From positions 7,194,501 to 7,258,500 of the forward strand of contig OX344755.2 of assembly GCA_947034885.2 (NCBI GenBank): DNA of 64,000 nt. Reading direction: 5' to 3'. Below are positions 6,673-37,401 of the stretch, piece by piece (within the stretch, counting starts at the first letter, position 1; every line of letters starts with the position of its first letter). The position numbers were made by a program, and so were the translations under genes. The stretch comes from Thuidium tamariscinum (lineage: Eukaryota; Streptophyta; Bryopsida; Hypnales; Thuidiaceae). The notes under the pieces were generated by a model. The model ran no database searches. It was not told where the DNA came from and was given only the letters and a program-made list of their open reading frames with translations.

Positions 6673-9180
6673 TTAAATGTCAAGATCGTCGTCTGGGTCT
6701 TCATCAGAATCTGGCCTTTCGTCGTCCGAGTCCCTCAAATAGTGTATTTCTCCTACAGCACCCAGACTTGACCCTGAATGTGGGATGTCACTCTCCTTTA
6801 CGGAATCTCTATTTCTTCCTAGCTTTTCAAAATCAGAAAGAACGGTATCTGGTCTTCCATCGTAGATATGCGCCTCCCTTCCATCCCCTGCAAGATGTTA
6901 ACAATGTTCATAACCTCAATGACGCGCATTTCTGCTGAGAAGGTAACCACACATTCAATAACCTTTTTAGACCCTTAATTGAGCAAGATCCAGTGATTGA
7001 GGTTACGATTGGTTATGTGGAAGCACAGCCTCGTTATGGAAATAACATCCCTCACCACATCTGTGGCTCAAGCAAGATATTTCCCGAGACTCAACTCTCA
7101 AAACTGGACAATACTCATACTGTATACAAGTCCATGCGATTAATGCGTACTGTACTAACAAATACCCATCCCCGCACATGAGTCTGTTCCAAATCTCTAA
7201 CATGAAATGCAACATTCAGTATGTGAAGTTGTTCCTGAGTGTGAGTTAAGAACACGAACCTTGATGCTCAAATGGCAATATGACCTTGGAACGATCTTCT
7301 CGCTCTCTGTCTGAAAGATCTAAATTAAACTGTACCTGCAAAATGGAATACAACACACCAGAGTTTGCCAATCTCAAATGGTCTGTAAAAGGCGAACCCC
7401 TACAGTGTGTTTGCTCAAATACCTGTATTGAAGTGGAATAGAGAAGTCAGTAGAAATGCCTGTACCTTGGGTGTAGTACTCTTCGCCACACTAGGAGTAA
7501 TCGTGTCCTTCGCAAGCATAACAGGAGTGAATTTAACTCCTCCTAGTTCAATCAGAAACTCCTCAACCTGAAGGTCATGCACACAATTCAACTTGCTTTT
7601 CAATCCTGAGAAACATAGGGACGGTGCTCTTTAAGTTAAATAGAAGATTCCCTGAGCCATCTGTGGAAGATTCAGAATACAAATAGACATGTTTCTGGTC
7701 TCTACCTGTTCCCGTACGCGACCGTTTCGTTTCTTTGTACGGACTCGAATCCTGCCTCGTCGTAGATTCAAGATCTTAGATTCTGAGGGTAATTGAAGTT
7801 GTGGCTCTACATAAAGCACCGTTGTTGAAAGATACTCAATGCTAGCTATCACCCTTGACTCATGCAAATCCGCATGCACAAGCCACATCACCGCTGATAC
7901 TTGCTCTGTTCAAATTCAACAATCATCAGAATCGATACTAAACAGAATTTCAAAGAAAAATTCCATCCAAAAAGAAATAAAAACGGACCATATACGAGGA
8001 TCTCAAACAATTCTAGGGATGAAGTATTACCACAGGAGCGTAGAGCGCTAAGGAAGTTGGTAAGAGCAGGTAGTGGATGGTATCGAAGAAGGACACTCAC
8101 CTACAAAAATACAAAACAAATCACGGAATTACACTTCTATAAACTTTGCAAAGGTCTGCTAAGAAAGGCGTAGACTTCAAAATCTCTGTAGAGAACACCA
8201 TGCCATTCAACACATTTCTAAGTCTTCACAAGTGGACAACTTCCTCAGACATGGAGAATCAGAAGTCTTACTGAGTCAAGAAGAACGGCAAATTGCACTG
8301 TCGCCTTGTTGTTGACTGAAGCTGGATGACATCCACCCACGCAGTTGATAAGCAACAGATAATATAGCATAACATAACAAAAGCATTAGAGTACACGAAC
8401 ATGCAAATTTGATAAGAAAGTTCAATGTACAAAGCAGGTCTTGTCCAAAGACAACAAGTGAAATACCTTGAGCCGATTCAAGGACGCTTGCGAGAAGGCT
8501 CTTCAAGTCTGTTATATCGTGGCAAACACAAGATTGAGCAGACGAATCTACACGATCGGACTTGTTCTCGTTCCGAACATCGGCTACATTATTCCAGCCG
8601 AGTGGATCCGTGTAACAATCTACGACCTGAAGCCTTTCCAACCAAAAGCACGTCAAGAAGAGGACTGTCCGTTATGCTAAGGCAATGTTTGCACTTCCAA
8701 AGCTTCTCGTAGTTATTTAATTGCAGTACGTGGCTGCAATTTCCCAAACTTATAAGACAGCAGTGAGTGATCGCTGCACGTCTGCATAGTAGCAATCTGA
8801 GCATAGAAGTTACGAACCAGCGATCAAGCTTGGAATTGCCCTTCCCGTACAGCGATGCGGCCGTATAGCTCTCCGGAGTGCGACGCAGAGCAACTGCCAC
8901 CAATCCTCTGTAGAAACAACAGCACTAAACCCTAAATTGTGGTGTCGTACTGCATGATAAAAGAAACGTGTTTATCTGACATCAAAGCAATAAAGCCACG
9001 AGAAACAGCATACTTGGCCTGAGCCCGCCCAGCCTCAATGTTGGAGCAGAGCGAAGAAAGCAAATGGTCGTAGATTGATGGCCCCGCTCTAGTATCCAAA
9101 GTGTCTCGCACCATCACGGCTGGGGCTTGTTCTCCAATAGCCACTCCATCCCGTAGTTGCCTGGCCACAGCCTCTGCCAT
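6673..9180 (-). CDS. ELP5: Elongator complex protein 5
   Basis: Nine exons on the minus strand, high to low: 9180-9014, 8907-8818, 8633-8467, 8297-8272 (26 nt), 8100-8031, 7905-7706, 7567-7466, 7335-7260 and 6887-6673. Phases match at every junction, giving 370 aa. Family features are the DCYTDPLGW motif, a DSVSVLLRYHP segment, VMWLVHADLHE, the KEREARD-like SDREREDRSKVILPFEHQ segment, and the C-terminal end DEDPDDDLDI, which is nearly the same in animal ELP5. ELP5 is a RecA-like subunit of the Elp4-5-6 ring of Elongator, needed for wobble-uridine modification of tRNAs. I chose the ATG at 9180. The frame stays open for 13 codons upstream, but only from a TTG, and that leader is the part copied in the downstream tandem array. 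The acidic tail and the exon phases make this call firm. Confidence 0.9.
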
Positions 9181-16361: not shown

Positions 16362-19300
16362 CTAACTTGTAGCCTCCGCATCTAGAAGAGACCCAATTAT
16401 GGAGTCCAAAACGGGCACTTGTAACTCATAACTCGCAAAATTTCCCTTTACAGAATGTGCTGTAGGAGGCATCCCAAAATCGGAAAGTAAAACAACATGG
16501 CTATGCACATATGCAAATGCCTTATCATCTCGGAGTAAATAAGTTCTGGAGGCAGGTGCATATTGTTCGTACCAATAGCCTTGAATTAGGCTTTCACCCG
16601 GCACAAATTCATTCTCGTATTCATCCTTGAATGCCAAAGCATTCACATGCTCTCCTTTTGTCACCAACATTATCCAGAATGCTTCACCATTGTCTAAGTC
16701 AGCCTTCACAACAATGTTGAAGCCAACTCGCACTTTCTCCCCTACAATGTGGCCCCCAATATCAGCTTCAGTGTCGTCCCAATCGTGCTCAGGTAGATTA
16801 CGTAAGCTTCCTCTAGACTTCGGACAGATCCTTCGTAGTGTCCAATTGGGCACGTGGGCCTTCTGGTAGCAAGGTAAATCACAGTTGGGATTAGAACAAG
16901 ACACACAAAAAAAGTGAGTTGCCGAAATTGGATCAAGGTTGGGTCCTTGCACGACAAAGAACGGCATTGGTGCATCCCTCGACTCCCTGGAATCGTTTCC
17001 GCCTCAAGTTTGTCCACCCTGCAAATGTCCCCTTCTTTGATTTCCCAGAAATTTTTTGTGGTTCTCTGGCGTTCACCTAATCGCCCTGCATGAAACTTAT
17101 TACTTTCTTCCTGTAGAAAACGAACAACATGAGCAGCACTTTGGAGTTGTCTCCCGTTAGGTTTGAGTTGCTCCTTATACAACTCCCGTTTCAGAAGTGC
17201 CCCTGCCCCATCAACTTCACCTTTACCATGTCCAGATGCAAAGTAATTCCATAACATTTGACAACCTTCAGGCAACTCGTCACTCATTGTCAAGCTAGGG
17301 AATCGACTTATGAAGTACCAAGCTCGGGCAGACTTGAACTGCTCATTGCAACCATCGTTCCACACAACATGGTTAGTGGGTTGAAATCCCTCTCCTTTCA
17401 GGTAATCCCAGTGCAATGAGAAGGCATGCTGAACATATAAGGAATCATGACATTTGTCATCTGAAACATAATAGTGAACTTCCTTCAATAAGTAAGGCTC
17501 ATCACCCGACAAGGTCCAATCAGGATTCAATCGATAAGTAATGTGGACCAAAATCGATACTTGCTGACTTCGCCAATGCATAGATTGGATTTCGTTTTGA
17601 ATTTTCATAGAATAGTTTTCAGAGAAATCCATACAAGATATGAGAGTACCATGAGGGACTGAAGAGAACAATTCTTTGAATTGCAAGTCCTGCCACGAGG
17701 CAAAAAAGTTGTGCACAATGAACTGTTCCAATTTCGGTTTCAAGTAATTTAGGAGTTCAAAAGGGGGGGTCTTACAGTAGATGACTTTGATGGCCTTCTT
17801 TTGCTTTCCATCTTCCCCCACACCGATTTCCTCATACCCTGTGCGTTTCCACTTCACTAGCTTCTCAGAAGAAACTTCGCCAGGGCAAATCCGCAAATTT
17901 TGGACACCACAATTCTCACAGTCACCGAGAATGCACTCCCGCTTGTACCAAATCTCGAATTCACCCTTTTGGCACAAAACTGAACTCCACAGATGCGTTA
18001 GTCGTTCATAAACTTCATTATGGGCATCGCATCCAGTTCCGACTATTTCACAATCACGAATAGTAGCACAAACAATGCAATCACAGGTGCAATCCTTATG
18101 TACACCCAACAAATCACACCTCATAGCATTCAAGCCATGTCGGAGATCTGAAAAATCTTGGTGGTACCTACAACAACATATATTCCATGTTTTCAATCTC
18201 CTTACCCACCAACATTTTAATGCCTCAAACGTCCTTAATCCACATCTCAGATCTGGATACTTCTTTTTGAATTCGGTGAAGAATTCCAACTGCCACCAAA
18301 GTACATCTCAGACCTCAGTTAGTTAGTCAGAACCACAAAGGACCACCAAGGACTTTCCAAACAGTGCTACGCTCCTTATGAAAAGGACCAAAAAGGACCA
18401 ATCATCCCAAAAGCAATATACTCTCATTATCTGCTTCAAAAATAGTACAACAAAGGACCTCTAAGGACCAAAGCAATACAAAGTGCTTAATTGCTATGTG
18501 ATCTAATACAAAGTGCTAAACCAAGGACCACAAAAGACCAAAGCAATACTAAGTGCTTAGTTGCTATGCGATCCAATACAAAGTGCTGAACCAGGGACCA
18601 CAAAGGACCAAAGCAATGCTAAGTGCTTAGTTGCTATGTAATCCAATACAAAGTGTTGAATTCAGGACCACAAAGGACCAAAGAAGCAACCCCTCTTGAT
18701 GCTCCTATGAAAAGGACTATGAAAATGTAATGGAGCCATTATCCAGAATGCTTCCTAAACCACTTACTTATCTTCTTACAGCAAAGGATGGTAAAGTAGG
18801 GAAAAAGTTGCCCTAAACACCTAAGCACATGTTGTTGACTATGTACTCTCTTGTGTCATTAGAAGCATGAGACTTCAGCACAATTCCAGGGCCTAGAGCC
18901 CCAACAGCACTTGGCAATCTCTTTGAATGACTAAGGAACGAATTGAACACCCTAAGCCAACCTTGAATGAACGAAAGTGACCGAAATTGACACCATAGCA
19001 GCTGCCACTTCTGCCAGTACCCTATCACCCTAAAGCATAGCTCCAAACTGAAAATTGCAGATGTACCTAGGAGATTTGAAGATAGTGAGTAGCGTGCTCA
19101 ATGTAAAGATTCCGCCCAATCCACTTTCTAACGATGTCCTTCCAATTCGGAGAAACTGTAGTCTCTTCTTCCCACCACTCGCTAATAATCTTCTTTGTTG
19201 CATCTGAGAGAGCATCTGAGCGAACTCTTCTTTGATCTTGTAGCCAAAACACATCTTGTTTTGTGTCCAGCAAAACTCTCCTCACAAACGCCTTCTTGAT

Positions 19301-19873
19301 ACTCCTCCGATCCACTCCAAGTAAACCTGCCACACCCCTCCCACTCCCAATTCCTGGTGCAACAACAAAAGTAGTGACAATGTTCTTTGCTTGAAGAGTT
19401 TTAGCTTTCCGGAGCCCCACGAGGTGACTCCCTAAACCATCTCTCAAGCTACCAACAACATCATGTCACAATTTCACTGCAACAGGATCCCTTAAAAAAT
19501 CAGGGACCATGCTCGACAGTATCGGTTGCCCTAAGATCTTCATAACGGTCAGGTGCTGAACCTCCGTCTCATGGTTCTTCATCTTCTTTGCTGCATACAA
19601 ACTGATGTCTCGAGCAAGAGTAGCACTAGTCCTATGAGCTTGTTTGTGATTTGTAACCAAGAACTTAGGGTCTCCGTTTAAGCTTCTAGCAGAGACCAAC
19701 TCCTATTCACTGCAAGACTGAGCTTTCCGAGCACGACACCTACGAGTCCTCTCTCGACCATTTGCTTTACGCTTTTCGGACAACCAAGCACCTAAACCGC
19801 AACCTAGTACAGGGAACTCTGGCAGTTCTTCAACAGAATCAAAACCAAACAAATTCGCATTCGCCCCTATCAT
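16362..19873 (-). pseudogene. Decayed DDE-like transposase (cc8L18.2-like family)
   Basis: Exon 1 runs 19873-19067 and exon 2 from 18289 down to 16362. They are joined by an intron of about 780 bp (donor GTACAT at 19066, acceptor GGTGGCAG before 18289) in matching phase. Motifs resemble a transposase-like family seen in animals and algae under names such as cc8L18.2: TVSPNWKDIVRKW, LRTFEALKCWWVR, MDFSENYSM (putative first Asp), WNDGCNEQFKS (second Asp) and SGHGKGEVDGAGALLKRE. The family link is from memory and not certain. The frame is broken by TAG at 19703-19705, TGA at 19466-19468, TAG at 19067-19069 (last codon of exon 1) and a frameshift at about 16975-17010, after which the C-terminal 200 codons continue in another frame. 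It is therefore inactive as it stands. It probably mobilised the 11.7-kb segment in which it lies. Confidence 0.65.
18469..18690. repeat. 70-bp minisatellite in transposase intron
   Basis: Three consecutive 70-bp units at 18469-18538, 18539-18608 and 18609-18678, plus a partial fourth. Each carries CAAAGCAATACTAAGTGCTT and GGACCACAAAGGACCAAAG-like words. The array lies within the intron of the decayed minus-strand transposase. Confidence 0.8.
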
Positions 19874-23390: not shown

Positions 23391-23400
23391 CTAGAATAAG
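23391..23400. repeat. Target-site duplication, left (14-kb element)
   Basis: The 10-bp sequence CTAGAATAAG directly abuts the left terminus CAG at 23401. It is repeated in direct orientation at 37392-37401 beside the right terminus. Ten bases is the observed identity; the enzymatic duplication could be 8-10 bp. Confidence 0.85.
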
Positions 23401-23444
23401 CAGCGGTGCTATTCTGTGAGCGTGCGAGCGTGAGCCTATGAGCA
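23401..23444 (+). repeat. Left terminal inverted repeat of the 14-kb element
   Basis: Forty-four bp matching the reverse complement of 37348-37391 with about six mismatches. Just inside (23445-23475) are further ATTCTGTGAGC and TGAGCGGGG copies, which look like repeated transposase-binding words. Confidence 0.85.
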
Positions 23445-23835
23445 CTGAGCGGGGATTCTGTGAGCGGGGAGCATAGAATTAAGGAATATCATTAGAAAAC
23501 TCAATAATATTACAGAAAATGTATTAGAAAAGAAAAAAATGGTCAAATTTTAATATTCTTAGTAATTTTTTGCCCTTATTAGCATGGACCTATTACCGTG
23601 AAAATGTACAAATTAAATAAGAGTTTTAGATTTTTAATAGGGTTTAATATTAGAACAAAACATTGTGAAGACAAAGAACTCAATTGATGGCACTAGTTTT
23701 AGAAGGATGGAAATAAGCGTGGATAAAAAATAGCATCGAAATACAGTATTTGTCCAAAGACAAAATGATACTTCTATAGCTATAGATGTTGCCTTATAGC
23801 CTAAGATATGAAGGCACTGAAACATTTTTGGAGCT

Positions 23836-26800
23836 CTAGGTATGTTGAAGACCCTTGCTTGGAACCGCCATGATACCAGCTTTAATGAGGAGATGCTTCA
23901 CTTCATTGAAACTAAAGCTTGGAGAATGTATGAACTTGTCTTCTAGTAGGTTCATTTTGCAGAAGTAACGAAATAAGTAATATAGATGTTTACAATTGAC
24001 ATATTGATGTCGTCCACCAATCGCTGAGACAGCCATGTAAACAAAATCAGGACAAGTGCAATCTGGATACATTCCAAGTGTGATTTGATAAACTTTGTGC
24101 GCAAGCTCTGTTCCAGATTGAAGGGAGATTATAGCTCCCAGTCCGGGATACGGGAGCATCGTAACTCCCAAAATCGTTCCTTTCACATTCGCAGCACTCT
24201 CCCACTTATTGCAATGCTCTGTACTAGGAGCATTGGCAAGTCGCCTAATGGGCTTGCTCCTTCGAGTTGTTGGGTAGGTGTCTGCATGCAGAGGGCTCCG
24301 TTCATCATGAAGGACCGCCTCAAAAACATTGGACATGGTAAATAATCTTCGAGGTGACATTGGTGGGCGCTCCTGGAGAAGGAAACCACCCTCTTGTAAC
24401 ATAAGTGTTTCCTGGCGAGTCAAACTAGTGCCCGTCATTACAGGCCACACGTCTGGTACTTGAGGCCAGTCAATTACCCAAGTACGTTTAGAGCCTCGAA
24501 CACATCGGTCAATATCATCTGGGCAGAACCAAAAATCGGTCACGACCTCCTTGTTTCCACCCCATTGTTTCTTTCTACCACGATACGTTGGAGCCGGAGT
24601 GCCCTTACATCCCCTTGCAATTTTTGCGACACAGCGGATGTTGGATCCACGCTGCTGGGCGTGACATTTGCAGCTAGACTTGTGTGATAATCTCGCAATA
24701 TGCCATTGCGAAGTGTCACAATCACTCTCCAATGCTATTGTGACATGCGGTACATGCTCAGAGTCGCGGGGAGTGTCGGCATTATTTGAAGGTTCCATTG
24801 GTTCGCGGGTAGATCGGGTAAGGACCCGTGGCTGAGAGAAATTGACCTTGTCAGGTCGATGGGAGTCACCATCCGACCCAATTGGAAGGTCAAGCTTGCG
24901 CTTCCCACTACCGAACACCTCTTCGCCCTCCAAGTGTGGAACACGTGTTGTAACATCAGCTGCTCCGGGAAGCACATTCAATGCCTCTGCGATCTTCTTT
25001 GGGTCGCCGCTACGCCTAGCACCTCTTAACTTCAACTCCTCTTTAGATGGCCCTGACCTAGATGTCTTACCCTTCAAGAATGCTCGGTAATTTGTCATTT
25101 GCATGAAAGCACGAATGCAGTCATCACAAGTTGCGGCAAATAAATCATTTCCTCGATTACCAGACTGCTGCAACTATTTGTTATGGATTGTCTCGGACAA
25201 GTTGCATGATGGCATGTCTGCCATCTCTTCAATACTAAGTCCCTGCAATTGAAAAAATATGATGAGTCCTACAAAGCCATTTCTGATAATCCTTAAAATA
25301 ATAGTGACTCATGAGTTGTATTTCTAATCTGTTCAGTAGGGCCTCAAGTTACCTCTCTTCTCCGAGAGGTGTTTCACATATATCCAAGTTTGATTAAAAA
25401 ACGTCTTTAAACAAGGCAGAGTGCTACAATTTCTAATCGGCATAGTAGGTTGTGAAGTTAACTCTCGGCTCTGAGAGGTAAGCTTCCACTTAACCAGTTT
25501 GATTTGTACAAATGCCTAACCATAGCAAAGCGTTGATGTTCTTCATCATCTCAGTGGCCAGTGAAGTGACCTCTCGGCTCCGAGAGGGAACTCACTCGTT
25601 CACTACGTTGATCAAATTGGACCTTCAAGTGGTTATTCTAATATTTACTTAATACAAAAATATTATTCATAATTGAATTCGGAATAAGATTAAATCATGG
25701 AAATAGAAAGATGATAGGTGAAGTTACCATTTCCATGAAGCCTCCCCATTGACGATATCGGAAGTGCCAAAAGCAAAGCCACAACTCTAGTTCCCGCATA
25801 GCATCTTCTGAGGCTGCCCCTGATGATAACCACCATGATCGAATGGCCAAGTATCTTGTCTCCGCTTCCTCCATGGTCTTTGAGTCTTTATATTGCTTGC
25901 ATAGTCGAATATGCTGGTGTTGCAGATCTGGTTTAATGAGCTTATGTGTATGTCGATGCAGCGAAGTAATCCAATGCAGAAGACATGTTCGTTCGCGGTT
26001 CTCCATCATTTCCTTCGGATTCCCCGTACCATATACAATGCGAACGGCATTCCAATTAGCTTGTGCGCTGTCTGCCATGAAGCCTTTGAAATTTGGATTC
26101 TCCACACCATTGCGTCTCATAACATCATTAAGTAATCTCCACATGATACATTGGATTTCGGTATCTTCTGATTGCATGTCACAGACAGCAATTGTCATGA
26201 CTTTCCTGCATCCTGTGTCGTACACATGGCAGGCCATGGTCGTCCAATCTCTTACACGTTTTACATGGTCAAACATTATCCACGCATTCTCCAAATCTCC
26301 ACCAACTTGCATGCGTTTGACTAAGTCCACTCCACTACCAGGTCCATCTACCAACATCTTAAACAAGTATACTTTTTCCTTTCCTTGTCCAGGGAAAACA
26401 TTGTCATGGATGTATTCGAACTTCAAATTCCGTTTCATATTCATGATGCTATCTATGACCCTACCTTTGCCAGTACTACGAAATGAAGATATGGTATTAC
26501 GGATATTAGGGGAACTCAATATTTGGAACCTATCCATCACATCCTCAAGTGATTTTCCCTCCAACATCTCTTTAGGTCCATCCCCGACGTGTATGAGGTG
26601 ATTGTCTAAAAACTGCTTACTAGCTGCAAGGGCTATGGCAGAATTAGTTGCACTAGGGGTTTTGGAAACCTCATCTACTATAAGTTCACTGATAGTGTCC
26701 AAAGACTCCCTACATGTTCCGGAAGCAACAGGATGCATATGGCAACCTAAATGAATGCATGCTCTGGTCATAACTACAACATTGCTAAAAACATAATACA

Positions 26801-27890
26801 CTCTAGCATCACAGGCACTAACGCAATGAGGAGGAATTTTGCAAATCTTGCAAAGAAGAGTGGAATCTTTTGGAGGGGCTAGGCCAACAGAAAATGGTAT
26901 AGTAGTATAACCGCACCACTCAGTTTCGTTGCGCTTTGATGATCGTTTCAAGTACTCACAGTCGGGGTTGTTACATACTAGATGGCCTGCACAAGAAGAT
27001 TTTCTAAACTTGAGACCATTTTCGTTATTGATATTGGATGTCATGGTTCGACACCATGCATGACCATCATAACGTTTATCCATACCATGCAAGTTCCTAC
27101 CAACAGTTGCTGAAGATGAAGCATGAAGATGTGGCAACTCGAATATCACATTTCCATCAAAGTCCGGGGGCAGGTACTGCACTTTGTGATGTACAATTGA
27201 ATCATAGTCTAAAGCAGCAACTTCGTTCCTGGATCCACGAATAGCTCCTAGTGTGCGAAAACAATCGACAATACTAATGGTACTAGTTGTACCATTTGGA
27301 TAAGTTGGAGGACGAGAATGAGTGGAAAAAGTAGGACTACTAGAAGGTGTGCTAAACGGAGTGGAAGCTGGCTTCATGACTTTCTTGGGAAGTATATGAT
27401 GAAGTGTTGCTTGTAAGCTGGGTTGGCTGGGAGACTCTCCCTCAGACTCACTCGATATATTGATGATTGGGTCTAGAACTTCTTGCTTCACTCGAACAAG
27501 TTGAACAGGAGTACCATTAAGCCTAATGTGATCAGTTTCCACAGAACTACTAATATCCTGACGCAAAGACGGCATATTCACTGTAGAATAATCTGACGTG
27601 CGAGGTAAGACATCATTGGAGCCACCCATGACGATAGAGCACAAACCATAAGCTCTATAGCGCCCATGACAAAGTTTCCAGACATGACCATCGTCAATTG
27701 CTACCTTCAACATATGGACAGATTCCTTCAAGTGGCCAGAGTCGGACATGACCTCCTCCTCAACGTAAATACTAGACTAGACAAATCCAAATTGAACATG
27801 AAGAAGGTGTGAAGACACGACAGCAAACCCTTCTTCATCAAGAGGAAGTACTAGCGGAATTTCATGTCCATCTGCTCGAATGGAGGCCAT
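23836..27890 (-). pseudogene. MULE-like SWIM transposase with premature stops
   Basis: Exon 1 runs 27890-25728 and exon 2 25242-23836, joined in phase 0 by a 485-bp GT-AG intron (1189 codons in all). At about residues 245-330 there is a GCM/FLYWCH-like Cys/His zinc finger (CAGHLVCNNPDCEYLKR). The RNase-H-like core has MFDHVKR (about 541), FMADSAQANW (about 607) and CLLHWITS...H (about 636). A C-terminal SWIM finger reads CTCPDF...CKHLYYLF. The conserved SETIHNK-x-LQQSGNRGN segment holds an in-frame TAG (25174-25176) where the family has Trp. A second TAG at 27777-27779 (codon 38) probably replaced CAG. If the ATG at 27749 is the true start, only the first TAG matters. The protein would cut and rejoin the element's terminal repeats. 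As sequenced it looks inactive, barring readthrough. Confidence 0.75.
25353..25586. repeat. Three 16-bp palindromes, period 109 bp
   Basis: Sites are at 25353-25368 (CTCTCTTCTCCGAGAG), 25462-25477 (CTCTCGGCTCTGAGAG) and 25571-25586 (CTCTCGGCTCCGAGAG). Spacing is exactly 109 bp twice, inside a diverged tandem repeat that fills the transposase intron (25243-25727). They are the same family as the array at 30.8-32.1 kb, with less perfect centres. Confidence 0.85.
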
Positions 27891-30185
27891 TGCCAAAGAA
27901 TTTTGCTTTCACTGCAGAACTAAAGAAATATGAAACAGCAGACATCAAACAATAGGAAGCAAATGACTTCAAGGGTTCAAAAGTACAGTATATAAGGGCA
28001 TGAGATAGTGTTATAAATGGAAGCAGGGGACACTAGACTATGGGATGGTCAGTAGCCGATAGAATGCAATATTTCTAGTACTGGAAAAAGTTGATTTTTG
28101 AAATGACCGCCAAAATGTAGGTTTCGGTACATTGCTCTTGAAGTGTCTGATGAAGAACCTAACTAATGAGGCCAAGTACTTTAGAATTCAAAAAACATAA
28201 TAAATGTGGGTAATTTAATACCCAAAATGAAGTACGTGCCTCACTAGCTTTTTATTCAAAATTGTAATAGGACACCTATGCAAATACAAACCAACCCATT
28301 TAATCATCTATATTTCAACTTAAATAAATCTGACACATACATTAAGGTGCCCCCAATTTCGCCACAGCCTGTTACAACACTGTCACAAATATGTTTTGGG
28401 ATTGATATCATGTTCCATTTGGCAATAAATAACGCAGTCCATTTGAATTGAACTCTCAATACCTAGAACTACTGATTCAATTTGATTCTGTCAAGATATC
28501 CGTTATTTGCTTCTCGAAGATATAAACAGTAATTGCACTTCCTAAACCGTAAAGTTAGGCCATTTCAATAATTGTTTTTAGAAATGAACCTTCTAGGAAC
28601 ATTTGCTGAAGACCATCTAGAAAATTCTTCGAACTTGTGATTGAAATTTAAAGTAAATCGTGATATCTTCACTTACTCATATAAAATTAAATTCTGAATT
28701 GTGTATAAAAGAATTGCCTCTTCACCCAAAAGGAAGGCTCTTGCCACTATGTGATTTGTTAGTATAGTATAAAGTCATCAAGTAAAACATCATTTTAAGA
28801 GCGCGAGTAGTGAGTGGTAAGGCTTCATTGTGGTAGTGCTAGTGAATATAGTGGGTCTTAGATTGAGCTAGTAAAAGAAACTTTAGCATGATCTGAGTAG
28901 CAGTGGAAGCGATACTAAGTTTTGCTATTTTCTGAGCCATATTGCAATATGTAGCGGAAGACTAATGCTGACGGAAAATGAGACTTGTGAAGGTAGTTTT
29001 GAATTTACGGAGAGGAAGAAGAGAAAGAAGAAGAGGGGAAAACTTCTTTTTTCTTCGCGTAAGCAGTTACTGCACTCTCGAAGAAGAGCATTGATAATAT
29101 CATCGAACAATGGTGGCTTTTCAGTAGGACTTGCTTCCGGTCTGCAGGAAATTGAAGATAAAGAAGGGAAGGAGGTCAACGAACGGAGTCCTCAGAAGTC
29201 GCAATGTTTTCTGCAGGAAACACATAGAGTTTGCAGCCTAGGAGGAACGTTCTACTCTTCTGTAAGTAGATCTTTTTCTGAATAACCATTTTGTTGTGAG
29301 TATTAAATCCTCGACTTGAATTCAATAAATAAGAAGCGAAGCCCTAGGAAAATATAGAACAGTATAGCAATCCATGAACAAAAGCCCTATTGCTGTTTTC
29401 ACCTTTGGTTAGGGACTATGACATATTAGCTTCATTTATTGCTGGGTGGTGTTAGGCCAAGGAGAATTGACAGACACATGATACGTTTTTTTCATCTTCT
29501 TATCGGACCCGCGGTCTCCATATTCTATTCATGTATTGGTTGGTGGGGTTAACACCAACGAGATCTAAGAAACACATGATACATTTTTTTAACCTTCAAG
29601 TAGGGCACGCGGCCTCCATGATGTATTAATTTATTGATTACGGGGGATTAGTCTAAGGAGAATCAAGACACCTATAAAACATTTTTTCAACCATCTGGTA
29701 GATATCTTCCATGTAACAGCAATGTATGCTTAAGGAGGGGTACTAAACTTTCCTCATTTTAAAAAGCTTTGTTCTAGCGATTGTTATATTGCCTGGGCTT
29801 TAAGATAACGTGTATGGACTCTGGATGACCATCCACATACTATTATGCCTTGTTTATATGTATGAATGAAATACATAAATTCACTTTTCTTCCCCCCGAA
29901 GCAACGTTCTAATAGTCGGACCTGGTATTCGTGACCTGTTCACACACCGTCCTCCCGTGATGATTCGCTTCTGTACCTTCTGCTGTCAACCAGCCTCCCG
30001 CTGTTCCGCAACCCTCACCCTAAATCGCACCGCTTTCTCTTCTGTGTAACGCGGTTGCTTCCGCCCATGTTTTTAGGCCCTTCCGTCTTTCGACATTCAT
30101 CAACTCCATACCCTAAAGCGACATTGCACTACATTTTGGGAGGGGCTAAGGTTCTCTCCGCGCGTGGATGTAGAGTGCGGCAGAG
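27891..30185. promoter_or_regulatory. Divergent intergenic region of the 14-kb element
   Basis: This 2.3-kb region between the two divergent genes must hold both promoters. It includes a diverged tandem repeat at about 29455-29720 (two full copies and one partial, period about 105 bp; shared words ACACATGATAC, ATTTTTTTAACC-like and CACGCGGCCTCCAT). A plus-strand frame at 28965-29285 (106 codons from ATG, with a Lys/Arg-rich block KKRKKKRGK) is unrecognised. I cannot tell whether it is an extra exon or chance. From about 29940 the sequence becomes CpG-richer towards the methyltransferase start. Confidence 0.5.
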
Positions 30186-33100
30186 ATGGCGAGGAGACCA
30201 GCGACCCGACAAGCTACCGCCACCGGAGCGGGAGTAGAGGATGACCCGAGTGCGAGCGAGGAGAGCTGTGATGAAGGGGACCAGCGCAGCGCCATTTCGT
30301 CAACTCCAGCAGACTTGGGCTCCGGGGTACGTATTTCACCTCGGGTTACACATGTTCTTCTGAAATGTGTAGGAGGCCAGTAGGAATAGATAGAGGCCGA
30401 CTTTCTTAATTTTGTAGGCCGCCGAAGTGAATTGGCCGGCTCCCGAACGAAATGCTTACCATCTCTGAGGTAATCCTCCCAACACCGAGAGCGGCATTGC
30501 TTTTCAGAGAGTGAGAGTCCAAAGAGGTTAGGGTATTCGGTGAGATTAGCTGAGAATGTGGGTTCAAGGACGGCGGTATCGGCTCTCACAATTATCCACG
30601 GAGCACGGCTGTCTACATTGATCGGTATGCTAGACTGGTCAGATTGATTGAGTTTCAAACCGATTATAATTAGGGCTCAGGAGGGGCCGTGTCTATGCAG
30701 AGAGATTGGTCTGATTCTGAGAATCAGCATCATCAAAAACCGGCAGTGCACTCAGAGCTGTTTGATCTGAATTTTTTTGGGATTTAGGCTTGAATCAAAT
30801 CCAGCACTCGCTAGCATTCTTCTCGGCGTCGAGGGTGTAGATTTCCATTCCGATAAGAAGCCGAATTCAGAGCCATATCGCAATATCCTGCCACGAAATT
30901 CCTAGTTTGAATCAGCTTCAACGTACCGCAACAATCTGCCTTCGTAACCCCAGTCCTTTTTCGAATCAGCTTTATCGTCCCAGCTGGTTCTGCCGGCGCC
31001 AAGGGTCCAATCTACTCTCTTTGATGAGTGGCCGCATTCCTATGCTCTCTTGGTTCTTCATGAGTTCTGGATCATCAACACCCTAATCCCCCAGTCCTCT
31101 CGGCGCCGAGGGCGAGAATGATTTTCGAGTTGGGAACCTCTGTCTTTCAATCGGACAGAATTTTCAGACCTTTGAGATCAGACCCAACAATCTGGGGCAG
31201 TCCTCTCAGCGCCGAGAGATAGGATCAGAAAATTGGAGCGGCCCGAGAAGACCGTAGTCTCGGATGGGAATGAGAGGACTAGTGCTGGGACAGGGAAGAA
31301 TTTCTTGATGTTAAATTGCAGAAGTGTCACTCCCCGATGATCCTCTCGGCGCCGAGGTGGAGGCCAGTTTCCTACCCTGGCCAGGTGCTCCCTGATCCAT
31401 CGAGGAATCACTGAGACTTACCATCACCTGACTGAGTACCCGGTAGTCCTCTCGGCGTCGAGGGGAAGCCCACCCATTTAAATCCGATCAATTCCATGCG
31501 CATTCCTTCAGGAATCTTGTACAAGACGCCTTTAGTTCTTGAAGAATATAAAATTCTAGAGTTAACATCAACACTTGTCTGGATGCACTCCGCTCTCGGC
31601 GCCGAGGGTGACCGCAATATTGTAATAATGCTAAGAAATTTCAGAAGTAATTGATGTGTCTGGTTTAGGGTCATGTTCGATATTCTACCTGTCGGCGCCG
31701 AGAGGTGTCGTTCAATACGGATTTTTGATAGTCATCGGATTCATTGTGTTGCAATACGGCTACCTCTCGGGGCCGAGAGATAAGACTGGTCATGGACATT
31801 TGATAACGAAATTAAGATTATCATTAATATTTTATTCGATAGCAGCAAAGTAGTCTTGCTCTCGGCGCCGAGGTGAGTTATAATTGGTTGCATGTATGAC
31901 CAACAAGAATTGACCCAGAGAGAAGTTTCCCATTTGGTTGCGGGTAGATTGACTACGAATAGAGTAAGGTGACCTTGAATTTTCATTGCGTGTAGGGTTG
32001 TTGTTGTTGTATAATCACTTCTAAGTCTCGCTGTCTGTCTTCTCGGCACCGAGAGCGAAACAAAGATTTATCGCTTTGATTTTAGGTTTTAGGGGGAGGG
32101 CACAGTTTTGATTCAAATGCCCAAATTATAGGTCGTCACTTTCCTCCCTTGCATTGTTCGTTCATCTATGTGAGAACATAGTTCATTAAATCAGTACGAT
32201 GTGATCTCCTGTATTTGATGCTGATGTAGTGTTTCATGTTCTCGATTTTGCAGGTTCAGCCTCATGAAGTAGGTCCAATTGCAGAGGCTGGCGTCCAATC
32301 GTCTGTGGTTGAATCCCATACGACTGAACAACCTGCAATCGGGACAAGGGATGACATCGAAGATGATGCGTGTGATGTTGAGGAGCCTAGAGAGAATTTC
32401 ACCTCCGAGGATGCCCTTCGCAGGTCCCAGAAAGTTAACTCCGTGGCTACCATCTCCGAACTGAGAATGAAACCCCATGCAGATTCTCGTCTCCGAATAC
32501 CTCTATGTCGTCTTGTGCAGATGCCAATGATCAGACCAGCATTACAATGTGACTTGATCAGGCTGCAGCAAGATTACGTACACGGTTATATTGAAGGGCG
32601 GGTTGCGTTATATGTCTCCGTTACTAATGAGCAGGGCCTTGAAGAGTCTGTGACTACAGGTGATAAAGTTTCCTGGGGACCACATTGGAATGAGGAGAAC
32701 GACATCTTCAATTCGTATTTGGCTGCTACCCCTGCGTTGCAGCATCTGCAGAATTCGAAATTCTTCGTCTGTGATGGCAACCACCGACTGCTGGCATGGA
32801 CATCCTACATTTCGAAACACCATTCCAATGATCGACAATGGCATGTTTCGGTGGATTCCATTATACTGGAGACCAAGGGTCGTATTGGAGCTGTCATGCA
32901 TGTTATGCATGACATTAATAAGTAAGTTTGTCTAAATCCTCAACAATACCTGTCTTTTTTTGTTTTCTCTACAGATTTCGTATTGTCTGTTGAATCTGTA
33001 TTTCGATTATTGCAGACATACAGAGAGTTCATTCATAAAGACCAGCTTGGTCCACACGTTATATCGGGTGCGCAAATATGGAGTCATGTCTTTGGACAAG

Positions 33101-36100
33101 TTTTCTGAGCATCTCAGTCCCTCAGAGATGACTCAATGCACTCAGAATTTAAGAAAGTCTTGGTACAGCATGTCGACAGAGGTTTTCACAGCATTCATAT
33201 ATCGTGTAAGTTCTCCCAATTATCATTTACGTTCTGTTGGGCCTTCACGATTCTTGTAAGCTTTTTTTATGTATCTCACACCTTTGTATCTATTTATTAC
33301 TATAGTATGAGATTGCGGCTGCTGCGGATACTGCTGTGCGGTTCTACAAGGAAGACACTGTGGAAGAAGAGCAGACGGAAGAGGGCATCTTGGCTGCCAT
33401 GCGACATGGCACTAAGGAGAAGACTGCTGTCCTTATGAAGAAGTTAGGGAAGCTTACTGCCGTGGCTAATCCAAACCTTGGAACGGAGTGGCTTGATGAG
33501 GTATGCATTTCTGGATTAATTGATTCAACGTCCAATGGCTAACTATTTTGTTTTTCATTTTAATCATTAATTTACGTATTCACAGATTGAGCATCATTGG
33601 AGTTTGAATTCTATTCCCGAGATGACTTTGGACAAGTTACAAATGATTGCCACATGCAACGTGAAGCCTCAGCATAAAGTAAAGTGGTTGCGGTGGTGGA
33701 ACTCGTCCATTCAAACTAGGGAGGCACGTCGATTTCCAGTGAAGCCCGTTGGAGAATCAGATTTGAAGTCCTTCTTGGTTAAGGCTTGTTGGTATGCAGG
33801 GGTGAGTTAATCCTTTCCTATTTTCAAAATTTAGCTTCATGTGGAAACATTTCACTTGACTGTGTACACACTTTCTTCATGGACAGTGTTTCTTTTCAAT
33901 GAATTCAACTAACTGCTTGTATTTCATGAACGTGTAGATTGAAGATGTAGCTACAGAGATGTTCGAGACTATTGTGAAGAAAGATAACCTTGTCATGAAT
34001 ATGGAGTCGCCCCAGGAGCCAGATGACTTAGCGGATTACATAGAAGACTGGAGATGCAGAGTCTGGGATCATGCATTCCTTCCGAACTTTAGGGGGCATG
34101 ACAACTTCAAAAAGTCAGATTCCTTTGTGAAGCATAAAGACTCGGACCTCGTTGTAAAGCGTGTCATTTTCAGGTATTATTGTATTTGGTGCGTTCATAG
34201 TCATTTACTATGTTACATTTGTTTCCTTACCTTTTTCATCGTGGATGGAGGCTTGAGACATTTGTACCATTTTCCAGGTATTTCAAATATGAGCTGCTTC
34301 CGAAGGCAGCGATTGCAAAGAAAAATCTACCACCCTTTCTTGCAACATGGTTGGACGTGTCTACCGAGAGTTCCATGTTTTCTCCTTCCCAGTTGAAGTG
34401 GTGGACTACTGCACACTTGAAGACTGGAGCTTGGTACCTTGACTGCTCTCCAGAATTTACCCCTCTTCCTGAAGACCGGTTGAAGCGCTTGATCAATTCC
34501 CAACCTCTTGTCCAGGACCAGGAGTTGGCTAGCTTGGATGAGGAGACTCGGGCCATGGTTGTGAAGAAGAAGGAGGAAGCAGAAAGGAAGATTGCAAGTC
34601 GAAATTCGGAGGCTGTGGAGAAGGCGCTTCAGAGAGTTAAGAAGAGGAACTTGAAAACAGTTGAGAAGGAAAAGGAAGTGCCTAAGGAGAAGAATTCAGG
34701 GAGCTCATCGAGGAAACCGGTTTCGGTGTCATCTGCAGAGCAGCATTTACCATTGACGGAAGACGGTTTAGTACATGGACCCCCAGTCATTGACGTGATA
34801 AATGACAACGAGATATCTATAGATGAGTTCATTTGCAACTCATCTTTGGAGGCGGTCCTTGCTGACCCTCTCCCTCAGTTGTACCATGACATTGTCAAAT
34901 TCATGGGCAAGGTGAGGCCTTTCACTTCATTTTGAATTGTTTGCACTTTCACCTATTTTTCAATTGCGGACTTGAATCTGACTTTTGTATATTTGGCAGC
35001 ACACGGCGGATAAAGAACGATTCTTTAAGGGTGTTCGTACTGACAAACCACGCGTTGATCTAATCATCGCCGACATGCCCGAAGGCTTACCTGTACCTGA
35101 TGTGTCAAAGCCTTCTCATGTGGTCCCAAAGTGGAATGAGCGACCCGACACTTGGCTGCAATTTCTTTTTGAATTTTCAGATGGCCATTTGCAGGATGAT
35201 GGGGCTCTTATTATTATTCATCCTTATAGGGCTCAGGCCAAAGCCGATATCGTTGGGTATGCAAACCCATATTCCTTCAAATTACGCAAAGAATGGTGGG
35301 GGATGAACCGCTTGCACCTTACTTCACCTTTGGATCGTTCCTCTACGGTATGTTTTGTCTTCACATCCACTTTCAAAGATATTTTTGAATGCTCTTGTAA
35401 TCCCTACAATATTTTTTGGAGATTGACCTGCCTTATTGTGCAGACTTTGCGTTTTGGAATCTCATTGTGGGTGAGGAATTTGCCGGAGGTTGGACCTTCG
35501 AAGTTCACATTCCAGGAATGCTCAAAGTTGAAGGCACTTGGAGTAGACGTTGCCCGCGATGACATTCTACAGAATTACACAAAGGCGGAGACGAGGGCCA
35601 TGGACAACGGTACTCCTTGGAGAGGGGCACGTGAGAAAGATCCTCGATTTATGCAGATGTTCATTGAAGCATCATCTCTCCCGGGTGACGTGGTTGTGGA
35701 TTGTACAGCTTCAACTGGTAACTTCCACAACCTTTCTTTGATATTGTAATGCCATTGAAGCTTTTAATTACTTCTACCCGTTCTATTAGTATTCAAATGT
35801 AAAGTCTCTTTGCATGATGCAGGTGCCGCCATCCATACGTGTAGGCTTCTAGACAGGCACATCATTGCCTTGGAAGAAGACAAGGCAATCTTCGATGCAC
35901 TCCTTGCCCCTCTTATTTGTAAGATTGACATTGTTCCGGTCACACCGGCTACTGTGCCATTGGTATCAGATGACCCAGACGTTGTGGATGTTCTTATTCC
36001 ACAGGTTGTGAAGAAATCTCGATTCAGTAAGTAAGTTTTCACTTAATTTATTTTCCTTCTTCATTGTGAAGTGTTGCCACAGAGCATTATCATTTCTAAC

Positions 36101-36391
36101 TCTCCATGTTTTTTCTACAGCATGATGTCTACCGAGGCTACACACCGACCGTTCTATTCACTTCCTGGCTTTTTTCCAAGCCCAGATAAACCTTATATAC
36201 TACCCCCATATACTGAGGCTTTAGCAATGGATTATGCATCCCAGAGTTTTATCCCTACACAGGATAAGACTGCCACTTTAAATCCTAGAGTTTTGCAGTT
36301 TTTGGATGTGACAACCGTGGAAGTAGATGAGGTGCCTTCCTGCACTGATAGTAGTGACGACTGTCAGTCAATGTCTTCTTCATCTATGTGA
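30186..36391 (+). CDS. ParB-like / DNA methyltransferase fusion protein
   Basis: Eleven exons join in phase without a stop: 30186-30326, 32254-32921, 33016-33205, 33306-33500, 33586-33801, 33938-34173, 34278-34911, 35000-35347, 35444-35717, 35823-36030 and 36121-36391. All introns are GT-AG and the product is 1126 aa. A ParB/sulfiredoxin-like domain spans about 129-240: RIPLCRLVQMPMIR, then VCDGNHRLLAW, where the DGNHR (221-225) corresponds to the family's G-x-HR motif. The middle is helical, with a charged linker at about 620-690. The C-terminal part looks like a permuted amino-methyltransferase. A motif IV-like ADMPEG is at 784-789 (DPPY in active enzymes). Motif I is VVVDCTASTG at 959-968, followed by RLLDRHIIALEEDKAIF, as in bacterial beta-class N6/N4 enzymes. 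The role is probably DNA binding or modification. The missing PPY aromatic makes catalysis doubtful. No plastid or mitochondrial presequence is evident; nuclear action is inferred. Confidence 0.8.
30820..32055. repeat. Array of ten 16-bp CG-rich palindromes in methyltransferase intron 1
   Basis: Consensus CTCTCGGCGCCGAGAG. Sites are at 30820-30835, 31097-31112, 31203-31218, 31343-31358, 31449-31464, 31593-31608, 31689-31704, 31764-31779, 31859-31874 and 32040-32055. Decayed copies lie near 30477 and 30990. Gaps run from 75 to 181 bp, apart from 277 bp across the decayed 30990 copy; the DNA between is not obviously repeated. The cores CTCGGCGCCGAG contain three CpG steps each. All lie in the 1.9-kb first intron of the ParB-methyltransferase gene (30327-32253). 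Confidence 0.93.
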
Positions 36392-37347
36392 TCCTACTTC
36401 TAGGTGTATTACTCTTTTTGTATCACATTCTTCATTTTCTATTCATTTGTTTTTTGCCCCTCTTGTAGTAAGCAATACAGTTGTTACATTATTTTTTTGA
36501 GCTTCTCATTTGTATTGTTATTTTGTTATCAGGTAAAAGATGATATGTATGCTGTATACTATCAAATCTCTAGTATTTTGTGTTGGTGAAGGTCTCTTAG
36601 TTCTGAAAGACTACTTTAAAATCAAGATAGTTTTCCACAGTGGTTCATTTTGGTGTTGATCAATGTTCTCTTGACATGTAATACCTCTCGTGGCCGAGAG
36701 GAGGAATGCCCCACTAGCATTATGATCTCCAGTTCCACTGATCAGGATCCTAAACCCTGAATCCATTAAATGACATTAAACATTAAAAATTTCAGTTCCT
36801 TCAAATTGTGTTCGGAACTATTTTAATTATTATTTTTTATACATTGAAGATTCTGTCCCCATACCAAAATACAATGCACATTCCATCTCTTTCTATTGAA
36901 TTTCTGAGGATTTCAAATTGAATGATTACGTTATATCAAATTCATTGGTATATCTTCCATTACTTATTTTATTCATCATATTTTCCTACTTTCAAAATTT
37001 TCTCAATTATTATAATTTAGTGAAACCAATTTATGTATGATATAATAACGAATTCAAATGAATGTTTCTAAATCTTGAAGATAGTGAGCCTGAATTGTAC
37101 ACGTATATTACTATATATAAATAAAAAAATTCTAAGAACATGTTTCGATTGGTTTAAATATAATGGAATCCAAAAATGATTACACATAAAATATCATTTA
37201 AGGATAAGTCACACTTTGGATGTACAAAATGGGAAAAAAAATTTCAATATTTAAACCCGCTTTAGTATTATCCCCAACCCACGGTCATAGGTCTAACTCT
37301 AGATTTCATCCCAGAAAAATGTATGCTCACAGGCTCACAAGCTCACA
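36392..37347. other. AT-rich right interior of the 14-kb element
   Basis: 3' flank of the methyltransferase gene. It has one palindrome (36685-36700), then very AT-rich DNA to the right terminal repeat. No gene seen. Confidence 0.6.
36685..36700. repeat. Isolated 16-bp palindrome near the right end
   Basis: CTCTCGTGGCCGAGAG, one mismatched pair in the centre, same family as the two arrays. It is the only copy between the methyltransferase stop codon and the right end. Confidence 0.85.
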
Positions 37348-37391
37348 AGCTCACAAGCTCACGCTCGCAGGCTCACAGAATAGCAACCCTG
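37327..37391 (-). repeat. Right terminal inverted repeat with 9-bp subrepeats
   Basis: The terminal 44 bp (37348-37391) are the inverted copy of the left end. Here the subterminal word GCTCACAA[GC] is repeated in tandem about five times (37333-37370), giving a short 9-bp periodic array that the left end lacks. The end is followed by CTAGAATAAG at 37392. Confidence 0.85.
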
Positions 37392-37401
37392 CTAGAATAA
37401 G
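37392..37401. repeat. Target-site duplication, right (14-kb element)
   Basis: CTAGAATAAG, identical to 23391-23400. Confidence 0.85.

Follow-up and report, generated by a model that had tools for sequence, protein, structure and literature searches.

The window analysed here, 64,000 nucleotides of the moss Thuidium tamariscinum (assembly GCA_947034885.2, contig OX344755.2, positions 7,194,501 to 7,258,500 of the forward strand), contains a 14-kb DNA transposon that carries, next to its transposase gene, an 11-exon gene for a protein with a C-terminal domain related to the beta-class amino-methyltransferases (MTases) and a short N-terminal motif resembling that of ParB and sulfiredoxin. The 11-exon gene is confirmed as transposon cargo that moves with the element, and the noncoding parts of the element hold an array of 16-bp palindromes. 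In the best model that we can offer, with a probability of about 40%, the second gene is functional cargo and would encode the protein component of a sequence-specific anti-silencing or self-marking system analogous to VANC of the Arabidopsis VANDAL transposons.

Mobility of the element and its cargo gene

The original prediction, made from the letters of the window alone, described an element with 44-bp inverted ends and a 10-bp direct duplication on both sides. Its coordinates (23401-37391, or 13,991 bp) are exact: the element is bounded by two copies of CTAGAATAAG, which on the plus strand of the whole window occurs only at these two places (Table 1), and the terminal inverted repeats (TIRs) are identical at 38 of 44 positions without gaps; none of 500 shuffles of the right end reaches their local alignment score.

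A search of the genome (363 Mb, 19 contigs) with the left 300 bp of the element, in which 40 of 382 candidates were scored so that the copy counts are lower bounds, identifies at least 11 places at 97-100% identity and at least 29 more at 68-72%. All 11 near-identical copies found in this way possess both ends and the cargo gene region, and 10 of the 11 are flanked by perfect 10-bp duplications of different targets; for this reason the 11-exon gene is assigned to the element as cargo, in agreement with the original proposal. Nine of these copies, including the one in the window, are uninterrupted (13,983-14,006 bp; perfect duplications in eight); the other eight match the window copy at 98.9-99.2% over their whole length, and pairwise differences among the nine amount to 0.66-0.99%, a divergence pattern as after a single burst. 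The remaining two, c10, interrupted by a nested element, and c11, older (about 90-95% identity) and also interrupted, both have perfect 10-bp duplications and carry further insertions inside intron 1 of the cargo gene. Among the nine uninterrupted copies, the cargo gene is open in four (c1, c4, c6, c9), with all splice signals kept in seven, the transposase is open in four (c3, c4, c6, c9), and both genes are open in three (c4, c6, c9).

Ten of the 29 places at about 70% identity were retrieved, and eight are readable from end to end; in the stretches retrieved for L037 and L058, the right end is absent. The eight complete relatives are non-autonomous elements of 1.42-1.74 kb, seven of them with perfect 10-bp duplications (in L041, only 6 of the 10 duplication positions match). 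The six non-autonomous relatives that were compared with the 14-kb element match it at 68-71% over the left ~288 bp and at 86-92% over right-end stretches of 32-61 bp. The possibility of further autonomous families is rejected for those relatives that were read to both ends, which are short and non-autonomous.

Contig C11, which accounts for 17.5 of the 363 Mb, holds 7 of the 11 near-identical copies, far above its share; this contig could be a special (sex or accessory) chromosome.

The cargo protein

The 11 exons of the cargo gene are joined in frame through introns bounded by GT and AG, and encode, on the plus strand, a protein of 1126 amino acids that contains both motifs on which the original prediction was based, DGNHR and DCTASTG. 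The sole protein homologue found is P0001 (M758_1G295400) from Ceratodon purpureus, with 30% identity over 81%; scoring in the homologue searches was limited to the 7998-7999 candidates with the most words in common, and distant relatives may therefore have escaped.

By sequence comparison, the C-terminal domain is a relative of the beta-class amino-MTases, and the permuted methyltransferase-like domain originally proposed is thereby upheld. The Ceratodon homologue matches the Pfam family N6_N4_Mtase (PF01555) with 30.4 bits, above the cut-off of 26.7, over positions 2-217 of 221. PHROG DNA-methyltransferase families match both the window cargo protein and P0001, and a PDB profile search of the domain suggests DpnA and CcrM, with an E-value of about 0.003. 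An hhalign comparison to eight phage MTases gives a probability of 98.2% (E 4.8e-14) over 198 columns spanning motifs IV and I; these MTases were chosen from weak matches to P0001 (E 7e-5 to 0.8), so that this test is not independent, whereas the Pfam match is. In the cargo protein, motif IV precedes motif I, which is the beta-class order.

The catalytic motifs themselves are altered. Motif IV is DMPE in eight of the nine uninterrupted copies and DMPK in the other, DCPE in the nested family described below and DTPF in P0001; motif I is DCTASTG or DLSASTG, not the FxGxG-type S-adenosylmethionine-binding motif. Catalysis by this domain appears doubtful because the aromatic residue of motif IV is lost; METTL14, with EPPL, is a precedent for a non-catalytic protein of this kind. 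Active enzymes have DPPY, SPPY, NPPY or DPPW as motif IV, and replacement of the catalytic Ser and Tyr of SPPY with Ala abolished the activity of the bdelloid N4CMT (PMC8885841). Bacterial-type amino-MTases do occur in eukaryotes, namely bdelloid N4CMT and the Marchantia 4mC methyltransferase, and the cargo protein resembles these in being a bacterial-type amino-MTase-like protein of a eukaryote; N4CMT, however, has the catalytic SPPY, and neither protein is described in the accessible text of that source as transposon-borne (PMC8885841).

Of 264 phage records that match P0001, eight were opened, and each of these encodes an MTase of 239-275 amino acids; as the ParB-motif exon has no phage match, a phage origin of the whole fusion is rejected. 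A scan of viral contigs with a pair of peptide patterns taken from the ParB-motif part detects no relative.

The DGNHR motif lies within an N-terminal block that is well conserved between the window cargo protein and P0001. No ParB relative is found for the cargo protein or the ParB-motif exon in Pfam, PHROGs, PDB or phage searches. An hhalign comparison to nine ParB-like proteins (YbdM and eight phage proteins) aligns the motif in register, with a probability of only 2% (P 0.026); among windows taken along the protein, those with the motif rank highest, those without it reach 0.5% or less, and reversed sequences 0.1%. The ParB/sulfiredoxin-like domain thus stands as a motif-level proposal: of the domain originally predicted, the motif and its conservation in P0001 are retained. 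A fusion of a ParB domain to an adenine methylase is described in Bce_0392 from Bacillus cereus (PMC5512222). The likeness consists in a ParB-type motif and an MTase-type domain within one protein; the moss protein differs in its length of 1126 amino acids, with a long middle part that has no Pfam match, in its degenerate MTase motifs and its introns, and in that its ParB assignment is a proposal from the motif.

The palindrome array

A search with CTCTCGGCGCCGAGAG, allowing up to three mismatches, identifies 14 sites in the window, against 0.06 expected; all of them are in noncoding parts of the element, and none in the 50 kb outside it. This array had not been part of the original prediction. 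The core columns agree in 8-14 of the 14 sites (14 of the 16 columns in 12 or more), whereas agreement in the 20 flanking columns on each side is mostly limited to half of the sites at best; the exceptions are the position preceding the core (11 of 14) and three columns that follow the core (8, 9 and 8 of 14). Given this pattern of the flanks, simple tandem duplication is disfavoured as the source of the palindromes.

The same set of 14 sites is found in every one of the nine uninterrupted copies. Copy c10 keeps 13 of these and has one more, in a segment of intron 1 of ~330 bp that is partly missing from the window copy; c11 keeps 11, or 12 when an alignment shift of 3 bases is permitted, along with two additional sites. 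The additional palindromes, located in intron 1 segments that are unaligned to the window copy, may have been lost by the young family or gained by these copies. When c6 is compared with c11, differences are found at 12 of 221 core positions, against 146 of 1117 positions in the 40-bp flanks (p = 0.0008); with C>T and G>A changes left aside, the counts are 5 and 102 (p = 0.0002). The comparison is biased in that the sites were selected by how well they match in c6. Such conservation is typical of protein-binding sites.

At least one palindrome is present in six of the eight complete non-autonomous relatives; of the incomplete ones, L037 has one, and L058 has none in the stretch read. In five of the six compared relatives, a single palindrome is located 476-518 bp from the right end. 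Because bacterial parS is also a 16-bp palindrome, the combination of such palindromes with a ParB-like motif is, by analogy, suggestive.

Selection and decay

In the comparison of c6 with c11, 63 of 144 changes in the cargo gene are synonymous, against 43.8 expected, a number reached in none of 2000 simulations that preserve trinucleotide context (omega about 0.56); for the transposase, 32 of 105 changes are synonymous, against 29.8 expected, and 688 of 2000 simulations reach this number (omega about 0.90). Purifying selection on the cargo gene is thus seen in this single comparison. The column majority of the nine uninterrupted copies contains no stop in either gene.

The nine copies differ from this majority at 545 positions, and 428 of the differences are C>T or G>A, with per-site rates of 2.0% in CHG, 1.4% in CG and 0.37% in CHH contexts. 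An excess of C>T at CHG and CG is the expected footprint of methylated cytosines in plant heterochromatin. Given that the decay is concentrated at these sites, the host has probably methylated the cytosines of the element copies.

The transposase and the affinity of the element

In intact copies, the transposase gene consists of two exons and encodes 1189 amino acids. In the window copy it contains two premature stops, which go unmentioned in the original prediction, and because of these the window copy itself is probably non-autonomous. The transposase has 23 homologues at 45-61% identity, with a coverage of 53-62% of the query that corresponds to exon 1; none of the 23 has a Pfam domain. The Asp residues in the DDE-like blocks (FDHV, MADS) are invariant across the window exon and the 13 of the 23 homologues that were aligned. 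Pfam identifies no transposase family for the intact protein or for the 14 members scanned, and no KDZ or CxC domain in any of these; the SWIM match of the window open reading frame (ORF) reaches 9.5 bits, below the cut-off of 19.6, the intact protein has no Pfam SWIM match, and the pattern CxC...CxH is recognised by eye. No reverse transcriptase match is found in nine ORFs of the window or in the two genes of the element. Altogether, the 10-bp duplications, the TIRs of ~44 bp and a DDE-like transposase with a SWIM-like finger are best explained by a two-gene DNA transposon of the cut-and-paste type.

Fungal KDZ transposons carry TET/JBP genes and are, like the moss element, DNA transposons with a gene of DNA-modifying type, but the comparison with them drawn in the original prediction is not supported. 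The KDZ cargo proteins are oxygenases whereas the one described here is amino-MTase-like, the moss transposase has no Pfam transposase match, and the duplications (10 bp) and TIRs (~44 bp) of the moss element are outside the ranges of 4-8 bp and 139-241 bp given for three C. neoformans KDZ elements (PMC12810828).

The duplication length, the TIRs and the SWIM-like finger make Mutator-like element (MULE) the preferred, although not proven, label. MULEs have 8-11 bp duplications, TIRs, often a SWIM finger and sometimes additional ORFs (PMC6446971), and the 10-bp duplications in 10 of the 11 copies and in seven of the eight complete non-autonomous relatives are within this range. The TIRs of the moss element are short and its transposase has no Pfam transposase match, whereas MULE TIRs are commonly hundreds of base pairs long, with short or absent TIRs in some MULEs, and the table in the same source includes a group with 10-bp duplications, 40-bp TIRs and SWIM (PMC6446971).

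A second, nested family

The insert that interrupts c10 is a 10.9-kb element flanked by a 9-bp duplication, TATTTGAAG, with ends related to those of the first family. Its transposase is 59-68% identical to that of the first family, and exons of its cargo gene, which contains at least one premature stop, match residues 280-1100 of the cargo protein at 30-57%; the two genes are arranged head to head as in the window. Because a second, divergent family combines a related transposase with a related gene in the same layout, the two genes were probably associated before either family arose. Neither the ParB-motif exon nor the palindrome array is universal, at least as far as this nested copy shows.

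Layout of the element and its surroundings

The features of the element are compiled in Table 1. In addition to the tandem repeat at the right end, a looser GTGAGC-type repeat is present at the left end (23411-23472). Between the two divergent genes, the region 29422-29701 contains two overlapping repeats of ~98 bp that are 71% identical, with GGACCCGCGG-like stretches recognised by eye. Outside the element, large ORFs on the minus strand at 16362-19465 (521, 213 and 132 codons) resemble another transposable element by eye; a Pfam scan of these gives no match.

Table 1. Features of the 14-kb transposon (positions in the 64,000-nucleotide window)
Feature	Coordinates	Strand	Details
Left target-site duplication	23391..23400	.	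CTAGAATAAG; sequence match
Left terminal inverted repeat	23401..23444	+	38/44 identical to the right one; alignment
Transposase exon 2	23836..25242	-	SWIM-like CxC...CxH near the C-terminus, by eye; one premature stop in the window copy
Three 16-bp palindromes, transposase intron	25353..25586	.	CTCTCGGCKCCGAGAG type; at 25353, 25462, 25571, 109 bp apart
Transposase exon 1	25728..27890	-	DDE-like acids conserved with 13 aligned homologues; one premature stop in the window copy
Cargo exon 1	30186..30326	+	
Ten 16-bp palindromes, cargo intron 1	30820..32055	.	at 30820, 31097, 31203, 31343, 31449, 31593, 31689, 31764, 31859, 32040
Cargo exon 2	32254..32921	+	ParB/sulfiredoxin-like DGNHR motif
Cargo exon 3	33016..33205	+	
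Cargo exon 4	33306..33500	+	
Cargo exon 5	33586..33801	+	
Cargo exon 6	33938..34173	+	
Cargo exon 7	34278..34911	+	
Cargo exon 8	35000..35347	+	MTase motif IV position (DLIIADMPEG)
Cargo exon 9	35444..35717	+	MTase motif I position (DCTASTG)
Cargo exon 10	35823..36030	+	
Cargo exon 11 and stop	36121..36391	+	
One 16-bp palindrome, 3' of the cargo gene	36685..36700	.	
8-bp tandem repeat, right end	37325..37377	+	GCTCACAA, 6.9 units; partly inside the TIR
Right terminal inverted repeat	37348..37391	-	alignment
Right target-site duplication	37392..37401	.	CTAGAATAAG; sequence match

Possible functions of the cargo gene

Three observations together suggest the VANC-like model: the cargo gene shows selection, the introns of both genes hold the array, and the host has probably methylated the element. 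The cargo protein would recognise the palindromic array of its own family and, once bound, would counter or replace the cytosine-methylation silencing imposed by the host at the array, either by binding as such or through base modification by its atypical amino-MTase domain; a ParB-like/MTase-like protein would then occupy the role of VANC. In Arabidopsis, the introns and noncoding regions of VANDAL elements carry arrays of a short motif to which the VANC protein of the same family binds, and VANC removes methylation from that family; the arrays of the VANC21 motif are located in introns of VANC and VANB and upstream of VANA (PMC5735166). Both systems combine an additional non-transposase gene with a short motif arrayed in introns and elsewhere in the noncoding DNA of the element, and the VANDAL elements are, as the moss copies probably are to judge from their decay, methylated by the host. 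They differ in that the VANC motif, YAGTATTAY, is found in one orientation and in tandem repeats, whereas the moss array consists of 16-bp palindromes with mostly unconserved flanks, and in that VANC is not described in the accessible text of the source as an MTase or as ParB-like (PMC5735166). VANDAL/VANC is the closest working model found in print. A more specific version, in which the logic of ParB and parS has been taken over, with the cargo protein loading on parS-like palindromes in its own introns, spreading over the element, and laying or guarding a non-host mark that would exclude host CG/CHG silencing, is an analogy that we regard as improbable in this full form.

Several observations weigh against the VANC-like model. 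The palindromes could also be bound by the transposase or by a host factor; some have been lost in c10 and c11, two of the eight complete non-autonomous relatives (L042, L057) have none, and in the nested copy neither palindromes, at up to three mismatches, nor an exon with the GxHR motif are found. With respect to the protein, the window cargo protein reaches only 21.8 bits with PF01555, under the cut-off of 26.7, the NCBIfam matches are far under their cut-offs, motif IV lacks the catalytic (D/N/S)PP(Y/F/W) signature with both IV and I degenerate, and the Arg of DGNHR is lost in c9. Premature stops interrupt the cargo gene in five of the nine uninterrupted copies, the transposase is broken in five (in one through an indel), and c7 has no target-site duplication. 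In both genes, the nine young copies differ from one another in a seemingly neutral way, with no depletion of nonsynonymous changes, as expected after insertion, and the selection estimate comes from a single pair of copies and is diluted by post-insertion decay. Finally, methylation-type decay did hit the copies, so that any protection would have been incomplete or temporary.

Among the alternatives, the palindromic array might consist of regulatory or transposase-binding sites unrelated to the cargo protein. This reading, possible if somewhat doubtful, is compatible with the presence of sites in the transposase intron and in the non-autonomous relatives, but 10 of the 14 sites are in the first intron of the cargo gene itself, and the nested copy lacks the ParB-motif exon and the sites together. 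The proposal made originally, that the cargo protein is a working DNA amino-MTase that adds N6-methyladenine or N4-methylcytosine to the transposon DNA and so marks it for its own transposase or shields it from the host, is rather unlikely. The homology with beta-class motif order, the MTases encoded in the eight opened phage records, the aromatic residue kept in the Ceratodon homologue (DTPF) and the occurrence of adenine MTases in DIRS retrotransposons (PMC5890265) speak for it; against these stand motif IV of both moss families (DMPE and DCPE), which departs from that of all the active enzymes listed above, motif I in both its forms, and the loss of activity in the N4CMT mutants (PMC8885841). 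Of the notion of a transposon bringing its own DNA-modifying enzyme, what survives is that an MTase-like gene travels with the element; the altered motifs call the enzyme into question.

The cargo protein could also be an accessory transposition factor, comparable to the presumed role of TnpA and similar second proteins encoded by other plant transposons: a DNA-binding protein, its MTase-like domain non-catalytic, that assists the transposase by bending or bridging the element via the palindromes. The gene accompanies a transposase in each of the 11 copies as well as in the nested family and shows selection between c6 and c11, and five of the six compared non-autonomous relatives have their palindrome at a similar distance from the right end; however, the palindromes of the 14-kb element are concentrated in introns rather than near its ends, and the two complete non-autonomous elements without a palindrome have perfect duplications. 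Such a role is unlikely. Least probable, by a wide measure, is a passive passenger, that is, a host or viral gene captured with no role for the element. Transposons do capture genes, the catalytic motifs are altered and the young copies change in a neutral fashion, but the excess of synonymous changes between c6 and c11, the absence of stops from the column majority and the related gene in two divergent families disfavour this explanation.

Implications

DNMT-carrying retrotransposons are reported in Symbiodinium and Klebsormidium and Dam-like MTases in DIRS elements, and DNA transposons with DNMT are mentioned in marine viruses (PMC5890265). The moss element resembles the former in being a eukaryotic transposable element with a DNA methyltransferase(-like) gene; those, however, are retrotransposons with C5- or Dam-like MTases, whereas the element described here is a TIR transposon with a beta-class amino-MTase-like domain and a ParB-like motif. 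The published cases of eukaryotic transposon-borne DNA methyltransferases that were found are thus retrotransposons (PMC5890265). A keyword search of the open-access literature (titles and abstract openings) finds, among the matches listed, no element with the combination described here. Mosses are a group with established genetics, in which the ways a transposon evades or handles methylation by its host can be put to a direct test. With its methyltransferase-like cargo and its palindromes, this 14-kb moss transposon may carry its own machinery for managing the marking or silencing of its DNA.

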